Origin: Utricularia gibba
Lineage: Eukaryota > Streptophyta > Magnoliopsida > Lamiales > Lentibulariaceae
Direction of reading: 5' to 3'
NCBI GenBank assembly: GCA_002189035.1
Contig: NEEC01000009.1
Coordinates: forward strand, 310,001-374,000
DNA length: 64,000 bases
The translations under genes and the position numbers were made by a program. This document shows, piece by piece, positions 1,954-39,757 of this stretch; within the stretch, counting starts at the first letter, position 1; every line of letters starts with the position of its first letter. The notes beneath the pieces are model-generated. The model was not told where the DNA came from and did no database searches. It was given only the letters and a program-made list of their open reading frames with translations.

Positions 1954-3207
1954 TGGAGTTTTTAAGTTCAAGAGGTTTCCCAGTTTTTTAGGTTTTACTT
2001 AGTAAATCTTGCTCTTGTTTTTATTTTATAATTTCCATATTTCCAACACTTTTATCACAACTTGAATCTAAAACTTGTTATGGCTTCGTGGAAACTCAAA
2101 GCTTTACAAACTGATAGCAATTGAGACATACACACCATGATATACTCTTATGTTTCAGGTAAAACACCACAGGAAGTTTCCATTGCCGGGCTAAATGCAG
2201 AGATGATGCCTCTGACAGAAAAGTTCCTGCTATTCATCTACAGAGGCTCCTGTTCTTCTTCCCCCTCCATCAGGCTCTGATTTAAGCAGGTAATGATCAT
2301 TTCATCAAGTTTCCATTGCCTAACTCCGGAGTGAATCCCCGCGAAGGTTACAACCACCCCTCTGCACCAACATTATTGGTAACACGGCAGTATTGAAGGA
2401 CGCTGGCATTTGCGACTCAAACGACGTGGAAACCCTTGTACTAACTGATAGAGGCCAATCTCTTGTCAACCCTCATATTGGGTCCCCCAAGTCAATGAAG
2501 AGGATTTCAAGATATGAACTTTCTCGCTTTTCGTCATCGCCATTGTAGAGTCCGTTCGCCGGATTTTCCTAGATTTTGAACATCGTGATTGTGTGGCATT
2601 ACATGTTATTTTGTTGATGAATAGTTTTGTAGAAATTCTACTCGTTGATCTCCTCGTTGACTTCACGGCAATCCGGCAGTGGTGCCAGCTGTGAGACCGT
2701 GAACAATTTTTTGTCTGCGTATGTGCGTCAGCTGAAAATCAAAATAAAAAAAAAAAAAAACAAGAGCTTTCATCCTCATCAAGTTTCTGCGTATGTCTAC
2801 GTTGGGCATGGAGTTCATCAATGATGGGTGGAGGTACCCATCGCCGTTCGCTGTCAGGTTGCCACAAAAAACATATACATTTTTTTAATATGGAAATGAG
2901 AATTACACGCAACAGTGATTCTCGGCTTATTGGCAGATGGATGACTCTGCCATGAAAGCAGCTTCCTTGTTGGCGCATATAACTCATCTGGGTTTCCTCA
3001 AAATGATGGGCGTGTGTTGCTTGTGGAATCCATGTGCAGCACACGCGACTGCTCCGGCGACCACGCGAAAGCGGTAAGCTGGTGCCGATTTAACTCCTTT
3101 GGCCCCTTCATAAAATCAAGTTTTTAAGGTCTCATCATCACTGTGGCGGTCTTCATTTTTTCTTCCTCCAGAGCTGTTAGCGTCTAAATTATTGTCCAAG
3201 TTGAAGA
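1954..3207. other. Intergenic / 5' flank of MFS gene
   Basis: About 1.25 kb with no recognisable coding region. Parts at 2160-2480 have gene-like composition and splice-like junctions (an AG before 2160) but match no family I know. They could be untranslated exons or a decayed gene. An A-run lies near 2745-2760. The last few hundred bases should include the promoter and 5' UTR of the transporter at 3208. Confidence 0.4.
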
Positions 3208-5934
3208 ATGAAGGAGCTAAGGCCACTTTTTCACCTTCTGCTTGCACTCTGTACTCACTGGGTTGCCGAGGAGATGACGGTTTCTGTGCTTGTTGATGTT
3301 ACAACTAACGCTCTGTGTCCAGGAAAAAATACTTGCCCTGAAGCCATCTACCTTAACGGCGTACAACAAACGGTAACCTTTTTGGTCTGGGTAAAAAGGA
3401 CTTCAGCTTTACACTTTTGTTTCTGTAACAAGAAAAAAAAAAAAAAGAAACTCCCAAATGAAGGCTTTCATTGGTTGGGCAAGTTGATGATGTTTTTAGG
3501 CAGAGTTATGTTCATCTTTCCACGGATAGCGTTTTAGATCCAGCAAATCCTGGGATATGGATGCAAATCCATTGAAAATGGCCTCAAAACTTGGAAAGAA
3601 AACCGTTTTGGTTACCATTAAACTTTTTTCTCGCTTTCAGGTTGTTGGGGTTTTCAAGATGGTAGTCCTTCCACTCCTTGGTCAACTTGCAGATGAATAT
3701 GGCCGTAAACCTTTGCTTCTCTTGACTATCTCAACGTCGATTGCACCATTCAGTAGGCCCAGAATCATTTTTATTCTCCATCAAACATATTTTCTTTCAT
3801 GTCTAAACCATCATCATCTTTTTCAGCTGTTCTCGCCTTCAGTCAATCAAGAAGATCTGTTTATGCTTACTATGTCATCAGAACCATTTGTAATGTGCTA
3901 AGCCAAGGGAGCATCTTCACAATTTCCATCGCTTATGCTGTAAGGATGTTCCTTATCATCTGATGCACTCGGCCAAATCCTTCTATTTGACTGAATTTGC
4001 ACTATCCAAAGGCGGACATTGTGGATGACAGTAGGAGGGCAGCAGTGTTCGCTTGGATAACGGGCCTTTTGTCTGTATCGCATGTGCTAGGAAACATGGT
4101 TGCTCGATTTCTCCAGTCACAATATATCTTTGAGGCATGCTCTTATTCGATATCCCGACTCTTCTATTTGTGATTTTTTTTTTCTGGCTAGTGATAATGA
4201 TGTGACATGAATTCCATTCCCAGGTTTCATTAGCTCTTTTGATATTTGGCCCGGTGTACGCATCAATGTTTCTTAAAGAAACTGTCGTACGAACTATAGA
4301 GCCAGACCAGGAATTACCGATCATGAAAAAGGTTTGTAAGGTTGCTAGACAACGATATTGCTCAATGAAGAATGCTGCAGATATTGTCACCAGAAGGTAA
4401 TTGTAGGCCTCGTGAGTTCAGAAATACTGCGTTCAGTATTTTTAACTGATGCTTGATTTCTTCACAGCTCAACTCTCAAGTCCATTTGCCTGGTTTCTTT
4501 CTTCTATGACCTGGGGATGTCTGCTATCAACAGCGTCTTGTTGGTATAACTCGTTTTCAAAGCTTCCATCTCTTATTGCTACTTTTGAATTTGAATCATA
4601 GATACTACTGTTTTGTCATTCAGACCATGCTGACTTGTGTAACATTTCTTCATAAACTCACAGTACTACTTGAAATCAGTTTTTGGTTTCAACAAAAACC
4701 AGCTCTCAGAACTTAACATGATGGTAGGAATAGGCTCAATTTTTTCTCAGGTACAATACCTCATTCTGTCCTCTTTACTCTTCCTATTGAGCGTCCTCAG
4801 TGCTGTTTTTTATGTCTCTTGCCTCGAATATAAGTACACTGTCTAATCATCCTCCCCCTAAATCCTATTTTAACCATTTTCTCTTGCAGCTGATGTTGCT
4901 TCCTGTACTCAGTCCTGTCGTTGGAGTGAAAGTCATTCTCTGGATATCTTTGCTCGCATCAATAGCAACTGTACGTTTTGTAAGATGAAAACTGAATACG
5001 AGATTTCACATATGTTAGTAATTCTAACCTTCCCAAACTGCTCTTGTTCCAGGGACTGCTATATGGTTTTGCTTGGTCATCTTGGGTTCGTGCCCTTCTT
5101 TCCCCTCCCGTTAGCTCTTAAAACAACATCACATTCGATCTTATCATACTTAGTTACCGCTGCTAGTATCTTTCTGTACATTTATCAGATTCCCATCCAG
5201 TGTGAAATCTTGCATTTGTGCCTTTCACAGGTTCCCTACTTGGGTGCTTCCTTCGGTGTCATCTATGTCCTCGTGAAGCCTTCTGTTCGTCATTTCCCTT
5301 AAAAAGCTATGCTTTTTTTTGGCTGCCACAGGAGCAAATTGTTATCATTTTAATGTCTGTGTTTCTTTGCATTTCCTACAGACTTATGCAGTGATATCCA
5401 TGGGATCAAACTCAGCTGATCAGGTTGGTCTTTCTCATCACTTTGAAAACCTCTGCAGAAGGCCAGTCTACTAACTCTCGGATTCTTTCTCCTCTTCCAA
5501 CTAAGGGAAAAGCACAGGGCTTTGTCGCCGGCATCCAAGCTATTGGCAGCCTGCTTTCCCCACTCGCAATGAGCCCACTAACCAGTGAGTCTCCCCTAAA
5601 CCATGGCCTAAGAAGCTCTTTCCCATTTCCAAGGGAAATTTTCTTCTTGTTCTGAACTCTTGTTCTTCTTCAACTCAGCATGGTTTCTGTCAAGCAACCC
5701 CCCTTTCAACTGCAAAGGCTTCAGCATCATCTTGGCATCTCTTGCAATGGTAATCACATGGACAGCAGCCCCTCACCACTTTGGTTGCACCCTGCTGTGT
5801 ATCTCATTGGAGAATGCCCTTCTCAGGTGGTTTCCTTGTGCTTCACCACGACGTTAAACGTCGAAAACCCATTGGAAAAGAGTCCACAAGATGATGTGCG
5901 AGATGTGGAAGCGCCACTCTTGTCTCAAGGATGA
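3208..5934 (+). CDS. MFS transporter, HIAT1/tetracycline-resistance-like family
   Basis: Predicted 438-aa, multi-pass membrane transporter of the plant family related to animal hippocampus-abundant-transcript proteins. The substrate is unknown. Coding exons: 3208-3372, 3641-3752, 3827-3939, 4012-4134, 4224-4396, 4468-4543, 4664-4750, 4890-4970, 5053-5085, 5231-5284, 5382-5423, 5506-5584, 5679-5749 and 5827-5934 (stop TGA). All phases join cleanly. The N-terminus reads [16 protein letters not shown]. The MFS motif A ([11 protein letters not shown]) lies at residues 69-79, just after the second membrane segment. The C-terminus is charged and ends in APLLSQG, like relatives. The start is the first ATG before the conserved N-terminal helix. 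The fourth intron uses a GC donor (4135-4136) instead of GT. No stop or frameshift was seen, so the gene appears intact. Introns are short (about 70-270 bp). Confidence 0.9.
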
Positions 5935-30624: not shown

Positions 30625-33172
30625 TATCAATACGAGATGATGTTCCATCTATATGTCGTGGATACTCTATGTTGCATCGAATACCGAAGCAAATATCAAA
30701 CATGAGTGATGTAATCATTGATTACAACAACACTACATTAGAAGAATTGAGAATGAGAAAGCATGTTTTTGGGAGATTATGTTAAATGTTGAAGAATTTT
30801 GCTCAATTATGAAGCTCTAAATATGTATCTATAAGTGAAATGGTTGCTTCTTTTCTCGTTATCTTGGCACATGTTGCGTGTTGTTTCTTCAACAAATTTT
30901 AAATATTTATAAAACGTAAAACACAAAAAGCGTAGTACAAGTATCGATCTCAAAGAGTTGTTTTTCGTGAAAAGTGTTTGTAAGAAACTTTCAAAAAATG
31001 TCACGGTTTTGCAAAAGGGGGTTTTTGAGATGCAGAAATAAAAGTTGCAACCTAAGTGATGTGCCTTAACTACGGGGCGCAGTTCTCGGGAATGAAATTC
31101 CATCTCCTTCCTTTGTCCGTCCTTACCTCGGTTTTTACTGATTTCTTCCGAATAGCTGGTTATAGGAGCAGGGAATTGCCTACTCTCCCTTACACTCTGA
31201 TTGACAAGAAGGCACAGAAATAGCCTCATGTGGTTCCCCCTTGGACGATTAGGAAGACAAGAGGATTGCCTTCGATTACCTTCAAAACCGAATGGTGCGT
31301 GTGTGCCCAGATGTTGCCAATGGTCAGTGGTAGGTCCGAGGTCACAACCTGTCCACTGTCGTGGTACTTAGGCCACAAGCAATCCGCTACTTCCCTCGAA
31401 CCGGTATGGTTGGAGTTGGTGCTCTTCACCTTGATCTTCACCAAAATCCGCGAGGAGTGGCCTGCTACTCATGGAGCTTGACTAGGAGTCGTTACAGAAA
31501 GACTGCAACAAGACGCGTGGAAGTATGCATAATCTGAAATGAATTCAACGAAGAATCGTGTATTGTTCAAGAATTGGAAGGAAACTTCATTTTCTCCCAG
31601 AAACTAAAGGTTTTTAGCCACAAAGAACCATCAAAACAGAAACGAAAATGGAAGTTAAGTGTTCTTCCTCATTGAGGGGAGGAAGAACTCAAAAGTTCTA
31701 AGTCTAGAAACAAAGGTTCAAAAGTCTAGCGTTCAAAAGTCCAAAACTAAGTGCTCTAATTGGCTTTTATATCACTCCCCACGTTCATTATCTTCTTTGG
31801 GTCCCCTTCGCATCATTCCTTCTGTCTTGTGTGCAAGTTAGCGCCCAATTATTGCTGTTGATTCTGATATGCCGTAAGTCATGAGCCTTGACCAGTGTCA
31901 GTCTTCCGCCAACAATTGTTCCAAGTCGTGTACAAGACACGAAAAGTTAGAGTCTGACCTCTTGTAATACTTCTACAACACTCTACGACAGTCTCCTGAC
32001 ATGTCTCGGTCAAAGAGCACGAAAAAAGACAGAAAAAATATATAAATAGGAAAATAGGATTTTTCTAAGGAAATACAATTACTTATCAATATAATTCCTA
32101 ATTGGACGACTTAGCACTAAATTAATATATAATAATACCTAATAATTAACTAGAATATGATACTTAACAGCACATCATTACAAGCAACGTATACAAAAGT
32201 GCAATTATAAGAGATCGACTCAGATAATTAGCAAGAATTTTCATAAGGTACTTTCAATAGTTCTAAATTTTCATGATAAATTTCTGGTGAAGCCACAGTC
32301 ATATAATGAAAATGTGCCACATGCCCTTAAGTATTTTTCAATATGTGCATTGATTGCATTGTTATGTTGTTATATTTTTATAATATTAATATTGAAACAT
32401 GAAATATACAGAACTCTTTGGGAGCTTTAGATGATATGTGTATCAATGTCAGAGTTGACATGAAGGATAAGGTGAGGTACATGACTAGAAAGAGTACTAT
32501 CTCAACAAATGTTTTAGGAGTTGTGATGCCAAGTTAAATTTCATATACGCTCTTAGCGGTTTGGAAGGATCTGCTGTAGATAGTCGAGTGCTTCGTGATG
32601 CTCTAACAAGAGAAAATGGATTACGGGTGTGCAAAGGTGAGGTTTAACATTATCATATAGTAGTAATGCTCAATTCTTAACCGTATTGTACAACACTTTG
32701 CTTTTTAGGGAATTACTTCTTATGTGACAACAGTTATACCAACAGTGAAGGTTTTTTAACACCTTATCACAATATTCGTTATCATTTGAAGGAGTTTCGT
32801 GCAGGAAATCAAGCCCCTCAGAATGCAAAAGAATTATTTAATATGAGACATGCAAAGGTGCGGAATGTTATTGAGCGAGCTTGGGCTGTATTGAAAATGC
32901 GTTGGGGTATTTTACGAGATCCTTCATTCTACCCCATTAAGACTCAAAATCACATCATTCTGACATGCATTTTTCTGCATAACTTCATACGAATGGAAAT
33001 GACATATGACCCAATAGAAGCAAAAATCCCATGGGATTACAACAGCAGTGAAGGTAATGAAGAAAATAATCATGAGAATCTATTTATTTACGAGATTGAG
33101 TCATCACAAGCATGGACAAATTGGAGGGATGATATTGCAAACAATATGTGGAATTCATATATGAGAATTTAA
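30625..33172 (+). pseudogene. PIF/Harbinger DDE transposase (element 1)
   Basis: The N-terminal part at about 30625-30871 reads ...MLHRIPKQ, then EELRMRKHVFGRL and EMVASFLVILA. It stops at the solo LTR and resumes at 32170 with HHYKQR and KNFHKVL. After an intron (about 32350-32409), LGALDD carries the first Asp. After one missing base, GSAVDSRVLRDA carries the second Asp. After a second intron (32637-32708), NVIERAWAVLKMRWGI carries the Glu, then CIFLHNFIRMEM and a natural end at 33172. DDE residues are therefore visible. In-frame stops near 30780-30820, the 1-bp loss near 32523 and the LTR insertion make it a pseudogene. The last exon (32709-33172) is open and well preserved. Confidence 0.88.
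30872..32169 (+). repeat. Solo LTR (copy 2) with 5-bp target duplication
   Basis: Begins TGTTGCGTG and ends CTTAACA, matching the repeat at 13754-15063. It is flanked by GCACA at 30867-30871 and GCACA at 32170-32174. The interrupted sequence is the transposase of PIF element 1. Removing the LTR and one GCACA restores the frame at ...VILA-HHYKQR. No internal retrotransposon sequence is present, so this is a solo LTR left by recombination. Confidence 0.92.
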
Positions 33173-34295: not shown

Positions 34296-34715
34296 CTAGG
34301 TAGCCTCTTCTGTACTGTGATTAGACCATTGAACTTTCACCATAGGAATCACCTTAGTCCTCAATTTCCTTTCTTGTCTATCAAGTATCTTGATTGGTGT
34401 TTCTATGTAGGATAGTTGATCATCAACAACAATATAGTCAAGAATCACCTTATGTTGGTCGGTATCCAAACATTTGCGTAGCTGAGAAACATGGAAAACA
34501 TTGTGTATTTTGGCATACTCTTCAGGTAATCTTAGCATATATGCCATTGATCCAATTCTTTTCTCGATCTGGTATGGAGCAATATATCTTGGAGCAAATT
34601 TATTTGGTCTTTTGATCCGAGATACTACTTTCATTAGAGTAACCTTGAGATATACAAAGTCTCCAACCATATACTTGTGTAGTACCCTATAAAACAAATA
34701 TTCAAAAATACACAA
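34296..34715 (-). pseudogene. Ty3/gypsy integrase C-terminal fragment
   Basis: The reverse-strand frame reads VGDFVYLKVTLMK, KFAPRYIAPYQIEKRIG, AYMLRLPEEYAKIHNVFHVSQLRK, the classic C-terminal (GPY/F-like) domain of plant Ty3/gypsy integrases. The rest of pol and any LTRs are absent nearby. It lies within the right part of PIF element 1, so it is a later insert or captured scrap. Confidence 0.85.
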
Positions 34716-34739
34716 TAATTATTTAAACTATTCAAAATG

Positions 34740-35035: not shown

Positions 35036-35857
35036 AGTTGTTTGGAGGAATTTATACTGATCGTGAATTCCCAATTAGGAGCAAACCCTAGACATCTCAA
35101 TTTAATGTAGTCAAAGTAAAAATAATGGATAATAATTCATTTAATTCATAAAGTTATTTTGGAAATTTAAATATAAACTATCTAATACCCAAATATCAAT
35201 ATCATTTAACCAAACAAATTGAATTGGTTAATATTAATACAGTAAACAAACAACATTTTAGTTTAACCCATCTACACCCAAATAAATTATACCCAAATTA
35301 TCTAAACTCAATTAATACATTTCCATCCAATCAAATGCACCCTAAGGGCGCGTTTGGTTGCTGGATTTGGTCTAAACCCAAATTTAGTTTATTTGGATTT
35401 AGGTAACCCGGTTTTATGGGTTTAGGGGGTGTAAATCGTGTTTGGTTGATGGGTTTTGCATTATTTGGGTTTAAATGAACCCATGTTTGGTAGGTGGGTA
35501 TAAAATTGGGTTTATGAATAATTTTCATGGGAATTTACCAATATAGCTTTCCTCAACAATAAACTATTCCTCTTTATTATCGTTTGTTTTCCTCTTCGTC
35601 CACCGACTTTCACACCCGGTTGTCGCGGTGCTGCCGGTCGACGAGATCTCCCAATTTCACAAGTAAGTGAGAGTGAAGAGTCCTGGGTTAAGTCCAGATT
35701 GTATACTCCCTTCGTTGCGTAGAGTTTCTCATTTGAAATCAATTGAATTTTGAGTAAATTTTACGGTTTACTTGTTGTAAGTGTTCGGTGTAGGTGTTTT
35801 GTTCTTGCTGTTTGCTTTCCTCCAGCACAGATTGCAGGTATGCACAGCCCAATCGTG

Positions 35858-36345
35858 ATGGAAGACTCTCACAAAAAAACGAAACGCGCCTAGAAGCCAG
35901 ATGAGGAGAAAGACTTGTTGCACGCTTTGAAGCAGATAGTGAAAGAAGCCTAGAAAATTAAGAATGGTTTTAGGAGTGGGTATCACCGAGCGTTGGAGAC
36001 AGAGTTCTTGAAACTGCACCCTACAACCGACATCCGTGCACACCCGCATATATCTAGCAAGGTGCATACCTGGAAAAAAGACTATTACCTCCTTGTAGAT
36101 TTTTTATCAAGGTCGGGCACTGGTTTCAATGAGCTGACTTACACCGTAGATGCAGACGAGGATGTTTGGAAGGAGTTTGATAAGATACGTATGCCCTATT
36201 CTCACTGTGTTATATTCGGTGCTTACCGTGTTCTTATGTTAGCATGCACCCAGGCTGCGCGTCCTAAGACACAAATCGTGGCCGTATTATATGGAGTGGT
36301 AGGAAATATTTGGAAAGGATCGGGCTACAGGAGATAGAACGATGA
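35858..36345 (+). pseudogene. PIF/Harbinger ORF1, Myb/SANT-like protein (element 2)
   Basis: From ATG 35858 the frame reads MEDSHKKTKRA-stop-KPDEEKDLLHALKQIVKEA-stop-K, then NGFRSGYHRALETEFLKLHP and SKVHTWKKDYYLLVDFLSRSG, a Myb/SANT-like (trihelix-type) DNA-binding domain. Near 36308 a second frame carries IFGKDRATGDRTMS, the conserved end of this domain, so there is a frameshift between about 36180 and 36300. Two early TAG codons and the shift make it a pseudogene. Downstream sequence is taken over by the captured phosphatase fragment on the opposite strand. Confidence 0.8.
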
Positions 36346-36639
36346 GCTATGTAGCCGCGTATGAACAAGAGTGGTGCTTCGTTGTTGAGCACTCTTCCAC
36401 AAACGTGGTGCTGCAACTACCGCCACGTTCAGTGCGATACTATCAAGTAGTGATGGACTAGCACCGCGTTGGTGTTGCATATTACGAAGCACCACGTCTA
36501 GACGCAAGGTTTCAAATCCAGTGATGGCACTGGATGTTACAACATGCGGTGCCACAGCGATCAGTGGCCGATCAAAAACTAAAAAGGTCAGCATACGATA
36601 GTTCACGCAAGATCCATGCAATTTCAAAGGTGCATCATC

Positions 36640-37470
36640 GATTACACAAGAGTCTTGTAATGCCTCCACAATGGATGTTGCTCGTCCATTGGACGTTGAC
36701 TTACCCGATGGCGATCGACGTGCGTGGGCACATTCATGTTGTCAATGAGAGCTTCCAGGAACGACCTAATATCTCCCCCTCGAACCAGAGAACAATCACT
36801 GACCGCGGTATACTTGAAGGTGGTTGGGAATATGGCATTTTCGGGCTGTCCAATGAAAGTAAACAATCATCGGATGCAAGATGGTGGAGAATGAATGCGA
36901 TCAAAAACTCACCGGATTGTGTAGTGACTTGTACGACGCATCATCGATGCAAAGCATATTAAAACGGTGATATTTGCCCTTATACTCGGTGATACATGAT
37001 TCAAAAGCTTAAGCTTAACCATGTTGTTCTTGTTGTCGTGCACCGGATAGCCTGTGTGCACACACCTGGATCCATTCCATTGAAAGACGAGCTTGCTGGC
37101 TGTTGCAGGCCCTAGTAACCACTGAACCACATCGTGCAATTGTTCACTGCCACATGTTGTCAGAAAAAAAAAAAATGAATGCGGACCCCCTTGCTTGTAA
37201 GATGGTCAATCTTACGGTCCTCTTGAAGACCATATGGCGATGTCAAAGTGTTCCATGCAAAACTGTATCAACTCACATGCACCAGGTCAAAGATACACTA
37301 CAACCACAAGAAATAGTACTGACACATGCCCCAAATATTTAATGCGAGTCAAATACACCGCATTACCATTTCGCCCGTAGATGACGGCATCCAACTTCGG
37401 TGCTCCCCACCTAACTTCATGAGGATACACAATGTCCGCAAGTAATTTGGCTGGGTTTTACATCAAGGTC
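36640..37470 (-). pseudogene. FCP1-like HAD phosphatase fragment captured inside PIF element 2
   Basis: Reading right to left: ADIVYPHEVRWGAPK (about 37450-37405), an intron, then GACELIQFCMEHFDIAIWSSRG (about 37285-37215). Another intron follows, then VQWLLGPATASKLVFQWNGSRC (about 37135-37070), HTGYPVHDNKNNMVKL, then a CIDDASYKSLHNP-like block in a shifted frame (about 36955-36910). Last come AIFPTTFKYTAVSDCSL and GGDIRSFLEALIDN (about 36840-36745). This is the ordered core of plant FCP1/NLI-like phosphatases, including the LLFCWxxxxC and DDSPYK regions. Introns are retained, so the capture was from DNA, not from mRNA. Frameshifts and stops are present. A related copy lies at 1290-1560. Confidence 0.82.
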
Positions 37471-37479
37471 TAGCTCTTG

Positions 37480-38358
37480 TGTCACTCAAGAGAGCCCATA
37501 GGTTTAAACCCAGGTTAAAAACGCTTAAAAACAGAGTAAGAGTGTGCGAAAATAGAATATGCGTGCGCAGGAACAGTAAATGGCATATTAAGCTCAAAAG
37601 AAAATGTGAAAAGCTTCAACAGAAACATGTTTATAAACTAAGGCAAGGTCTACAACGAGTTTCCCGTTCACATCAAGTTACCGAAAAGCAGCAGAAACCA
37701 TAGAAACGAAAATAGTAACAATAACAGGTTTTCGTAGAAATGAAAGTGGAAGAAATGTGCAAATAAAAGTTACAGGATGCTTCTGTGGGCTGGAGATCTG
37801 CTAGAAATCAAAGTTCTGGCCGAAAAGGTGGTGTAGACACGCAGATCTGGGGATCATCGGAGACTTTCGCCGGAGAAACGACGCTCTCCTTGCTCCCACT
37901 TGCTCCTGTTTGCTCTCTCTGTGCACTCTACGTGTACAGTGTACTCTTTTTCTTCTCTCCCTTCCTTTTCCCTTTTGCAGCTCAAAAGTAAGGGTAGCTT
38001 CATCTTTTACTCAAGCTTCTAAAAGGGAGATCTCTGCTCCATATCTTATCTCTTCATAAGGGCAGCTACTTTCGGCGGAAAGTGGATTTTGCACAGCTTT
38101 TCTGTCCCTTCTGACTTGTCAACATGGAAAGTGCGCTGCTACAGTACTAGCTCTTACCTTGGTAAGACTTAAAACAAAGACTAGACGAAATATTAGAGTT
38201 TTCGGCTCAATTGTTGCCAATTGAGTCTGTTTTCACAATAAACACATTTTAACAGTCTAAATACGCAAAAGAAGACAATTTAGCACATTAAACAACATTT
38301 AACCCTACAAAACACACTTAAAAACATATACAAAACCACAATAAAAACGGTGTTATCA
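37480..38358. repeat. LTR-like insert within PIF element 2
   Basis: Moderate-complexity sequence ending GTGTTATCA, which abuts the transposase exon exactly after its HLKEW codons (38359). On the minus strand it starts TGATAACACC, as an LTR would. A matching left end and target duplication (expected CCACT) were not found, so the left boundary is uncertain. Some adjacent transposase sequence may have been deleted. Confidence 0.45.
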
Positions 38359-39321
38359 CCACTCCTTCAAGTGGTAACGGACTCCACGGTATGGTGCCAA
38401 AAAGCCCTCCCTATTGGCGTATCCATTGTCACATAGGTAATATGTTCCTGTGTTATCACGTATAGATGGTGCATAAAATCATTGGAGTCACATCCGCACG
38501 GGCTAAACAAGTGAATACCTGGGCATACACGGAAGCCGTCGGATCGTGAGTGTACATCGTTTAACACCCGACTATCTACAGCAGACCCCACCCACCCAGC
38601 AAACACATATATAAATTTCATTTGTTCATCACATACACCCAACACGTTGGTGGATATCATCCCTTTCCGATTTCTATACCTTGCAGCATTACATTTGTTA
38701 ACTCGTATACTGATGTATGTACCATCTATGGCCCCAACACAACCTTGCAAATGCATAATCAATTTTAGGATACACATTGGTAAAAAGAAGCATGAAAGAT
38801 GTGTCAACCTGGAAGTATTTAAACTTTCCTTCTAATGCACGTTTTGCAGCAACTACTGGGGTCTCTAATAGCACCTCATAGAGGCAAAGCACCGCATGCA
38901 ACACCTTTTGGAAGCACCGAGTCATAGTCTCGGTGCTCCTCCCATAGACATGCTTCTGCAGCCGCATTTTTTTATGATGACCTAATATTCCTAAAAATAT
39001 GCAAACCATCTCCGGAACCGTTACATATTTTCCAGTATTTAAGTTAGAACGATTTTCTAATAGGCTACACAAAATACCCAAGGCATCTCGGTTGATTCTC
39101 AAATTCTCAATGGATGTGTTATTCACATCACTCACCAACCTATTAATATACTCAACTTGTCTAGGAATCTTGTGTGTAAGTGAATACCTGCATCTCACCC
39201 TATATCCCCTACGATATTTCTTCCAATGTAAGTATACTAACACATTCATCTGCACCAAGTATTCGGCCAAAACTACTGCTGCCGCACTCAAGATGACATG
39301 ACCCTCCGTGAAAAAATTCAT
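38359..39321 (-). pseudogene. PIF/Harbinger DDE transposase (element 2), C-terminus lost
   Basis: Reverse strand from 39321: MNFFTEGHVIL, then HKIPRQVEYINRLVSDV and GKYVTVPEMVCIFLGILGHHKK, then RCFQKVLHAVLCLYE (the N-terminal helix-turn-helix region). After an intron, CVGAIDGTYISIRV carries the first catalytic Asp and GSAVDSRVLNDV the second. A later exon in another frame gives YLCDNGYANREGFLAPYRG and HLKEW, ending at 38359. The NVIER-type block with the catalytic Glu is missing because the LTR-like insert follows. The long first exon (38820-39321) is open. The order and motifs match DDE_Tnp_4 transposases. Confidence 0.88.
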
Positions 39322-39757
39322 GTCTCCTCAACAGTCGCAAAAATCGAGCAAAATAAATCCACACACACAGCACCACGGATTCTGAAATTGGAAATTCACA
39401 AATAAAAACCCACTATTCGGTGCTGCCGTGGTTGGCCTCTCGCGGTGTTACCGTGGACCAACCCATCAAGAACAGAAAGCATACTTACCACCGGCAAATC
39501 ACGAATGTAGATTTGAGTTGTAGATCTGCGTTCAAATATAGTTCACGCGAGGGCAAAAGTGGAAGTGCCGAGCTGGGTTTAGCTAAACCGACCCCCCCCC
39601 CTCGGGTTTAGCTAAACCCAGCTTCACAGGTTCCCGCTCAGTTTATGGTCAACAGGTGGGTTTATTTTTACCCACCATAAACCTACGAACCAAACGTGGA
39701 TTTATGTCTAAAACCACGCCGCAACCCATCTAAACCCAACAACCAAACGCGCCCTAG

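Follow-up and report, generated by a model that had tools for sequence, protein, structure and literature searches.

Our analysis of 64,000 nucleotides of Utricularia gibba DNA (stretch G000:C505:310001-374000, in what follows ‘the window’) indicates that the PIF/Harbinger element at positions 35346-39754 is very probably a defunct member of a plant PIF/Harbinger lineage in which a third gene, T28-HAD, has long been resident. The lineage would thus possess three genes, that is, ORF1 (Myb/SANT), a DDE transposase and a fusion of about 480 amino acids in which a host-derived HAD half would have been joined to T28, otherwise known from LTR retrotransposons; since that event, T28-HAD would have been inherited along with the transposase under purifying selection.

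The window copy holds ORF1, a transposase and the intron-split exons of an FCP1/NLI-type HAD gene, and its features are as follows.

35343-35345, no strand: left target-site trinucleotide TAA (right counterpart, 39755-39757, is TAG)
35346-35368, plus strand: left terminal inverted repeat GGGCGCGTTTGGTTGCTGGATTT, 92% complementarity with the right arm
35855-36359, plus strand: ORF1 (Myb/SANT-like, PF12776) remnant with in-frame stops, ended by a 712-bp deletion
36642-36842, minus strand: phosphatase exon E (last), HAD C-terminus, 83% identity to relatives
36913-37145, minus strand: phosphatase exon D (motifs III and IV), one frameshift, from alignment to relatives
37218-37298, minus strand: phosphatase exon C (motif II, IWSSR), one in-frame TGA, from alignment to relatives
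37368-37445, minus strand: phosphatase exon B remnant, the junction cutting off motif I (DVNG), from alignment to relatives
37440-38359, no strand: LTR-like interspersed repeat of 0.92 kb in place of ~2.2 kb of element sequence, with copies elsewhere
38359-39327, minus strand: transposase remnant (DDE_Tnp_4, PF13359), first catalytic part at 38556-38729
39732-39754, minus strand: right terminal inverted repeat, complementary to the left arm

An earlier sequence-only reading had taken this segment for a PIF/Harbinger element with terminal inverted repeats (TIRs) at 35346 and 39754, ORF1 and a transposase, and this identification holds. The TIRs (~23-24 bp; arms 35345-35368 and 39732-39755) are 92% complementary, the target duplication (TAA/TAG) is of the TWA type with one mismatch, and the transposase matches PF13359 in a profile search (E=8.8e-8, compared with E=1.7e-14 for relative L012). 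ORF1 matches PF12776 with E=2.9e-4 and 22.2 bits, that is, just below the cut-off of 23.6, and corresponding ORF1 pieces are present at the equivalent site in relatives of the element. The ordered minus-strand exons of an FCP1/NLI-type HAD phosphatase and the retained introns were likewise correctly recognised: when aligned to relatives, the exons match at 80-93% and run in the order B-C-D-E, separated by introns of ~70 bp. Taken singly, the phosphatase exons of the window copy give no Pfam match; the joined exons of relatives match PF03031 (NIF; E=5.3e-10, 39.6 bits vs a cut-off of 21.8).

Beyond that reading, the window element is a dead deletion derivative of its family. The 712-bp deletion (36355-36359) shows 5-bp microhomology, while the ~2.2 kb lost at 37444 comprise the T28 exon, the linker and the end of the transposase, so that the gene is longer in relatives and begins there with a T28 exon; what is left of the phosphatase lacks motif I and carries the TGA in exon C and the frameshift in exon D. 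The repeat at 37440-38359 has other copies on contigs C3, C304 and C317 and two on C413, and we call it LTR-like because the two C413 copies lie in the same orientation 8.3 kb apart, as LTRs would. Pieces of this repeat also occur inside another copy of the element (L024). A gypsy-type polyprotein-like frame, recognised by eye only, adjoins the element at 34296-34718 on the minus strand.

A DNA search of the genome with the element as query yielded at least 15 relatives in which three segments keep their order: the left one (query 1-1014), the one with the phosphatase (1010-2099) and the one with the transposase (3011-4411). Family copies are mostly 83-92% identical to the window element at the DNA level, full copies measure 6.5-7.6 kb, and nine relatives exhibit perfect 3-bp target duplications (TAA, TTA, TAT, ATA), seven of which are TAA or TTA. 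The scenario that the earlier reading had set against capture, in which a host phosphatase stood in place and PIF pieces were later inserted on either side, is ruled out and retains a negligible probability; nothing in its favour came to light, and it fails since at least nine independent insertions with clean 3-bp target duplications each hold the whole unit. Of the proposed capture, the part that stands is the intron-bearing FCP1/NLI-type gene inside the TIRs of an element that keeps ORF1 and transposase; the event was neither recent nor made by this copy, because at least 15 relatives carry the phosphatase at the equivalent place.

In full copies the gene encodes a protein of ~480 amino acids in which Transposase_28 (T28; PF04195) is fused to the HAD phosphatase-like part, the exons following one another as T28, a linker whose end carries HAD motif I, and then those for motif II, motifs III-IV and the C-terminus. 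Relatives match PF04195 with 33.7 and 32.3 bits (cut-off 26.2), and all four introns of the gene are matched in position among the window's family, L049 and L051. Motif I reads DVNG in nearly all element copies, with Asn replacing the second Asp, and thus departs from the DxDx(T/V) form with its two Asp residues. This Asn leads us to class the HAD part as FCP1/NLI-like by sequence rather than as a proven phosphatase, and makes catalysis uncertain; the host genes likewise have DLNG/DVNG. A solved-structure search returned only a weak match to UBLCP1 (3shq, 7.8e-4), and the AlphaFold2 model of T28, built from 4 sequences, has a mean pLDDT of 36, too low to be of use. No fully intact T28-HAD gene was shown among the sampled copies, most of which carry disablements.

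The association extends well beyond the window's family. When 211 exon matches to the phosphatase query were grouped into 89 loci (34-93% identity), T28 was found directly upstream on the same strand at no fewer than 52 of them, and at no fewer than 39 a Harbinger transposase preceded the gene by 0.5-5.4 kb in the same orientation (at 2 it lay on the opposite strand). This linkage is strand-specific and greatly exceeds the chance expectation of ~0.003-0.004 per locus. Since only the best candidates were scored, these counts are lower bounds; at about half of the phosphatase loci a transposase was not detected. The divergent copies L051, L052 and L053 resemble the window's family by only ~41-42% identity in HAD, 55-58% in T28 and 66% in the transposase piece, and exhibit the same layout, in which transposase and T28-HAD follow one another in one direction and ORF1 is convergent. 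L052 has perfect 24-bp TIRs (GGCCTCGTTTGTTAGGTGGGTTTA) that lie ~7.1 kb apart and are flanked by TTA/TAA. Across the same family pairs ORF1 is 26-60% identical and hence not better conserved than T28-HAD. The HAD and transposase trees have their deep splits in common (support 95-100; distance correlation 0.93, n=17), while inside the window's family the two do not correlate (r about 0). Shared inheritance is thus shown at the family level only; short, star-like alignments may explain the missing correlation within the family, though recombination between its copies may also have contributed.

These data also bear on the proposal that T28-HAD forms a gene family of its own, mobile or belonging to the host, which elements of several kinds carry and which repeatedly lands next to Harbinger transposases. 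We consider this unlikely. Phosphatase loci with no detected transposase do exist, L049 and L057 among them, and T28 occurs in Retand retrotransposons (PMC11963269); yet order, strand and spacing are constant in 39 loci as against two exceptions, the deep splits of the two trees agree, and L049 nests, with support of 92 in the host-rooted tree, among transposase-bearing copies. L057 also groups with such copies in that tree, so that for these loci loss of the transposase and independent mobility are both possible, and some T28-HAD classes may live without Harbinger ends. In L049 (C402:1727800-1734600) the reading frame is open in the T28, linker, D and E exons, and exon C contains two TGA codons; an upstream transposase was not found there, and minisatellite-like repeats lie downstream.

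As to the origin of the HAD half, the nearest host genes (L042, L048) are FCP1-like, ~37% identical to the element HAD, and have DLNG/DVNG as motif I. In the comparison with host FCP1-like genes that had been suggested at the outset, three HAD introns match those of both host genes in position and phase, and two further host introns are absent from the elements. These three introns argue for an old DNA-level capture of intron-bearing host DNA; most likely, as judged from sequence comparison, the HAD half was taken long ago, introns included, from a host FCP1-like gene. The phosphatase gene is older than the divergence of subfamilies whose HAD parts differ at ~60% of their residues. T28 was not found near L042 or L048. 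The T28 of Retand retrotransposons runs antisense; DNA binding is predicted for it and its origin is obscure, with no similarity found outside transposable elements or to other known ones (PMC11963269). A Retand origin of the T28-HAD unit was considered and is unsupported: a locus devoid of transposase (L057, L059) was examined on both sides, and lends it no support because the gag end, not the 3' end, of the upstream gypsy element faces T28. The unit was not found in the antisense position between a gypsy pol and 3' LTR that characterizes the Retand accessory ORF, and no pol lies next to T28-HAD in L051 or L052.

The T28-HAD gene evolves under purifying selection. Within the family, dN/dS is 0.40 for T28, 0.41 for HAD (0.39-0.44 when one copy at a time is left out) and 0.34 for the transposase, values which were obtained with stop codons masked and frameshifted parts skipped, and which mix selection before insertion with decay after it. 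Between families, pS is saturated at ~0.8 and pN is 0.28-0.44. Ordinary transduplication, with host phosphatase exons as passive cargo whose copy number reflects hitch-hiking amplification, would account for the disablements in most sampled copies and for introns at host positions, and intron-bearing exons transduplicated into PIF elements are on record (PMC2528002). It is nonetheless quite improbable, more so than an independent gene family, given that the in-frame value for HAD contrasts with 0.69 and 1.08 in the two shifted frames, that the HAD motifs are retained at 40% identity, that even the closest host genes are so distant, and that the association is kept in diverged families with perfect TIRs. 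Hence, with selection having kept the gene through deep divergence, T28-HAD looks to be a functioning component of the transposon, not cargo stolen recently.

The long-term constraint on both the T28 and the HAD halves argues for a role in the life of the element. It is then tempting to speculate, although we would put this as a tentative proposal, that the T28-HAD protein reaches DNA or chromatin by way of its T28 half, and that the HAD half might there bind or dephosphorylate a nuclear phosphoprotein and so favour expression or transposition of the element; candidate targets would be the RNA polymerase II CTD, the transposase or ORF1. The Asn in motif I leaves room for a binding or weak-enzyme role. 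With the same reserve, one may conceive of a functional third protein that manipulates host nuclear phosphorylation (e.g., of the RNA polymerase II CTD) or the transposase, T28 being an accessory module that Retand, of Class I, and Harbinger, of Class II, would have in common.

That DNA transposons, PIF included, can carry accessory genes and transduplicated sequence is already known (PMC2528002, PMC8903248). The suggestion that gene capture is less familiar in PIF/Harbinger elements was thus too strong, considering the transduplicated exons and introns of grapevine PIF elements (PMC2528002) and the Pack-PIF elements of maize and rice (PMC8903248). The present lineage resembles Pifvine, Ping/Pong and PIF in its TIRs, 3-bp TWA duplications, Myb/SANT ORF1 and DDE_Tnp_4 transposase, and differs from them in a stable third gene, T28-HAD, common to deeply diverged families. 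Pifvine-3 likewise contains extra exons and introns, its inserts having been described as high-identity transduplications (PMC2528002). Pack-TYPE elements such as Pack-PIF also enclose coding DNA related to host genes between PIF TIRs (PMC8903248); they are, however, non-autonomous by definition, whereas the family described here keeps its own transposase and ORF1. HarbingerS, with a SET methyltransferase, and the TET/JBP-carrying PHISTA are again Harbinger elements that encode a further enzyme, one that acts on host regulation (PMC12730594), but they come from oomycetes and fungi and carry enzymes for chromatin or DNA modification, with neither a phosphatase nor T28. The ULP1-carrying MULE (KI-MULE) and CACTA elements show that a host-type enzyme gene can recur in plant DNA transposons (PMC2528002), with another enzyme and in another superfamily. 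The Ty3/gypsy element Retand has PF04195 in common with T28-HAD, in its antisense TRP28 ORF, and a transcription unit separate from the main genes (PMC11963269); unlike the present lineage it belongs to Class I, no phosphatase is reported in it, and T28 lies antisense between pol and the 3' LTR. Finally, the plant FCP1-like DLNG/DVNG phosphatases, represented by L042 and L048, share the HAD motifs and three intron positions with phase, and differ in their limited identity, their two further introns and their surroundings, in which T28 was not found. In the literature searched, which lay outside subscription journals and Repbase, we found neither a phosphatase/FCP1 gene nor a conserved T28-phosphatase third gene in a Harbinger element.

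Genes within plant DNA transposons have mostly been regarded as cargo that is carried passively and decays. In the present lineage an enzyme-like gene of host origin appears to be a lasting part of a cut-and-paste transposon, conserved at least as well as ORF1. That T28 is present in a Class II lineage, as the fusion partner of a phosphatase-like domain, provides a handle on both its function and its origin, and suggests an accessory module common to unrelated elements. Care is also called for in annotation, where a T28-HAD gene will be labelled a host gene or a ‘gypsy-type’ protein. Of the 129 genome-wide T28 matches, more than half have no phosphatase detected nearby, and many cover profile positions 5-67 only; these may be another class, perhaps of the Retand type.

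Another Harbinger-type DDE transposase (PF13359), ~63% like that of the divergent family and with no phosphatase detected near it, is found in the window at 32486-32983 on the plus strand. At the left edge of the window, positions 1-1591 hold a partial, inverted second copy of the window's family (L025; 84% to L009), which runs past the edge and includes T28 (417-611) and the HAD motif I exon (1258-1398). The window's family forms a local cluster on contig C505, where a span of ~280 kb (70-350 kb) contains at least five of its copies.
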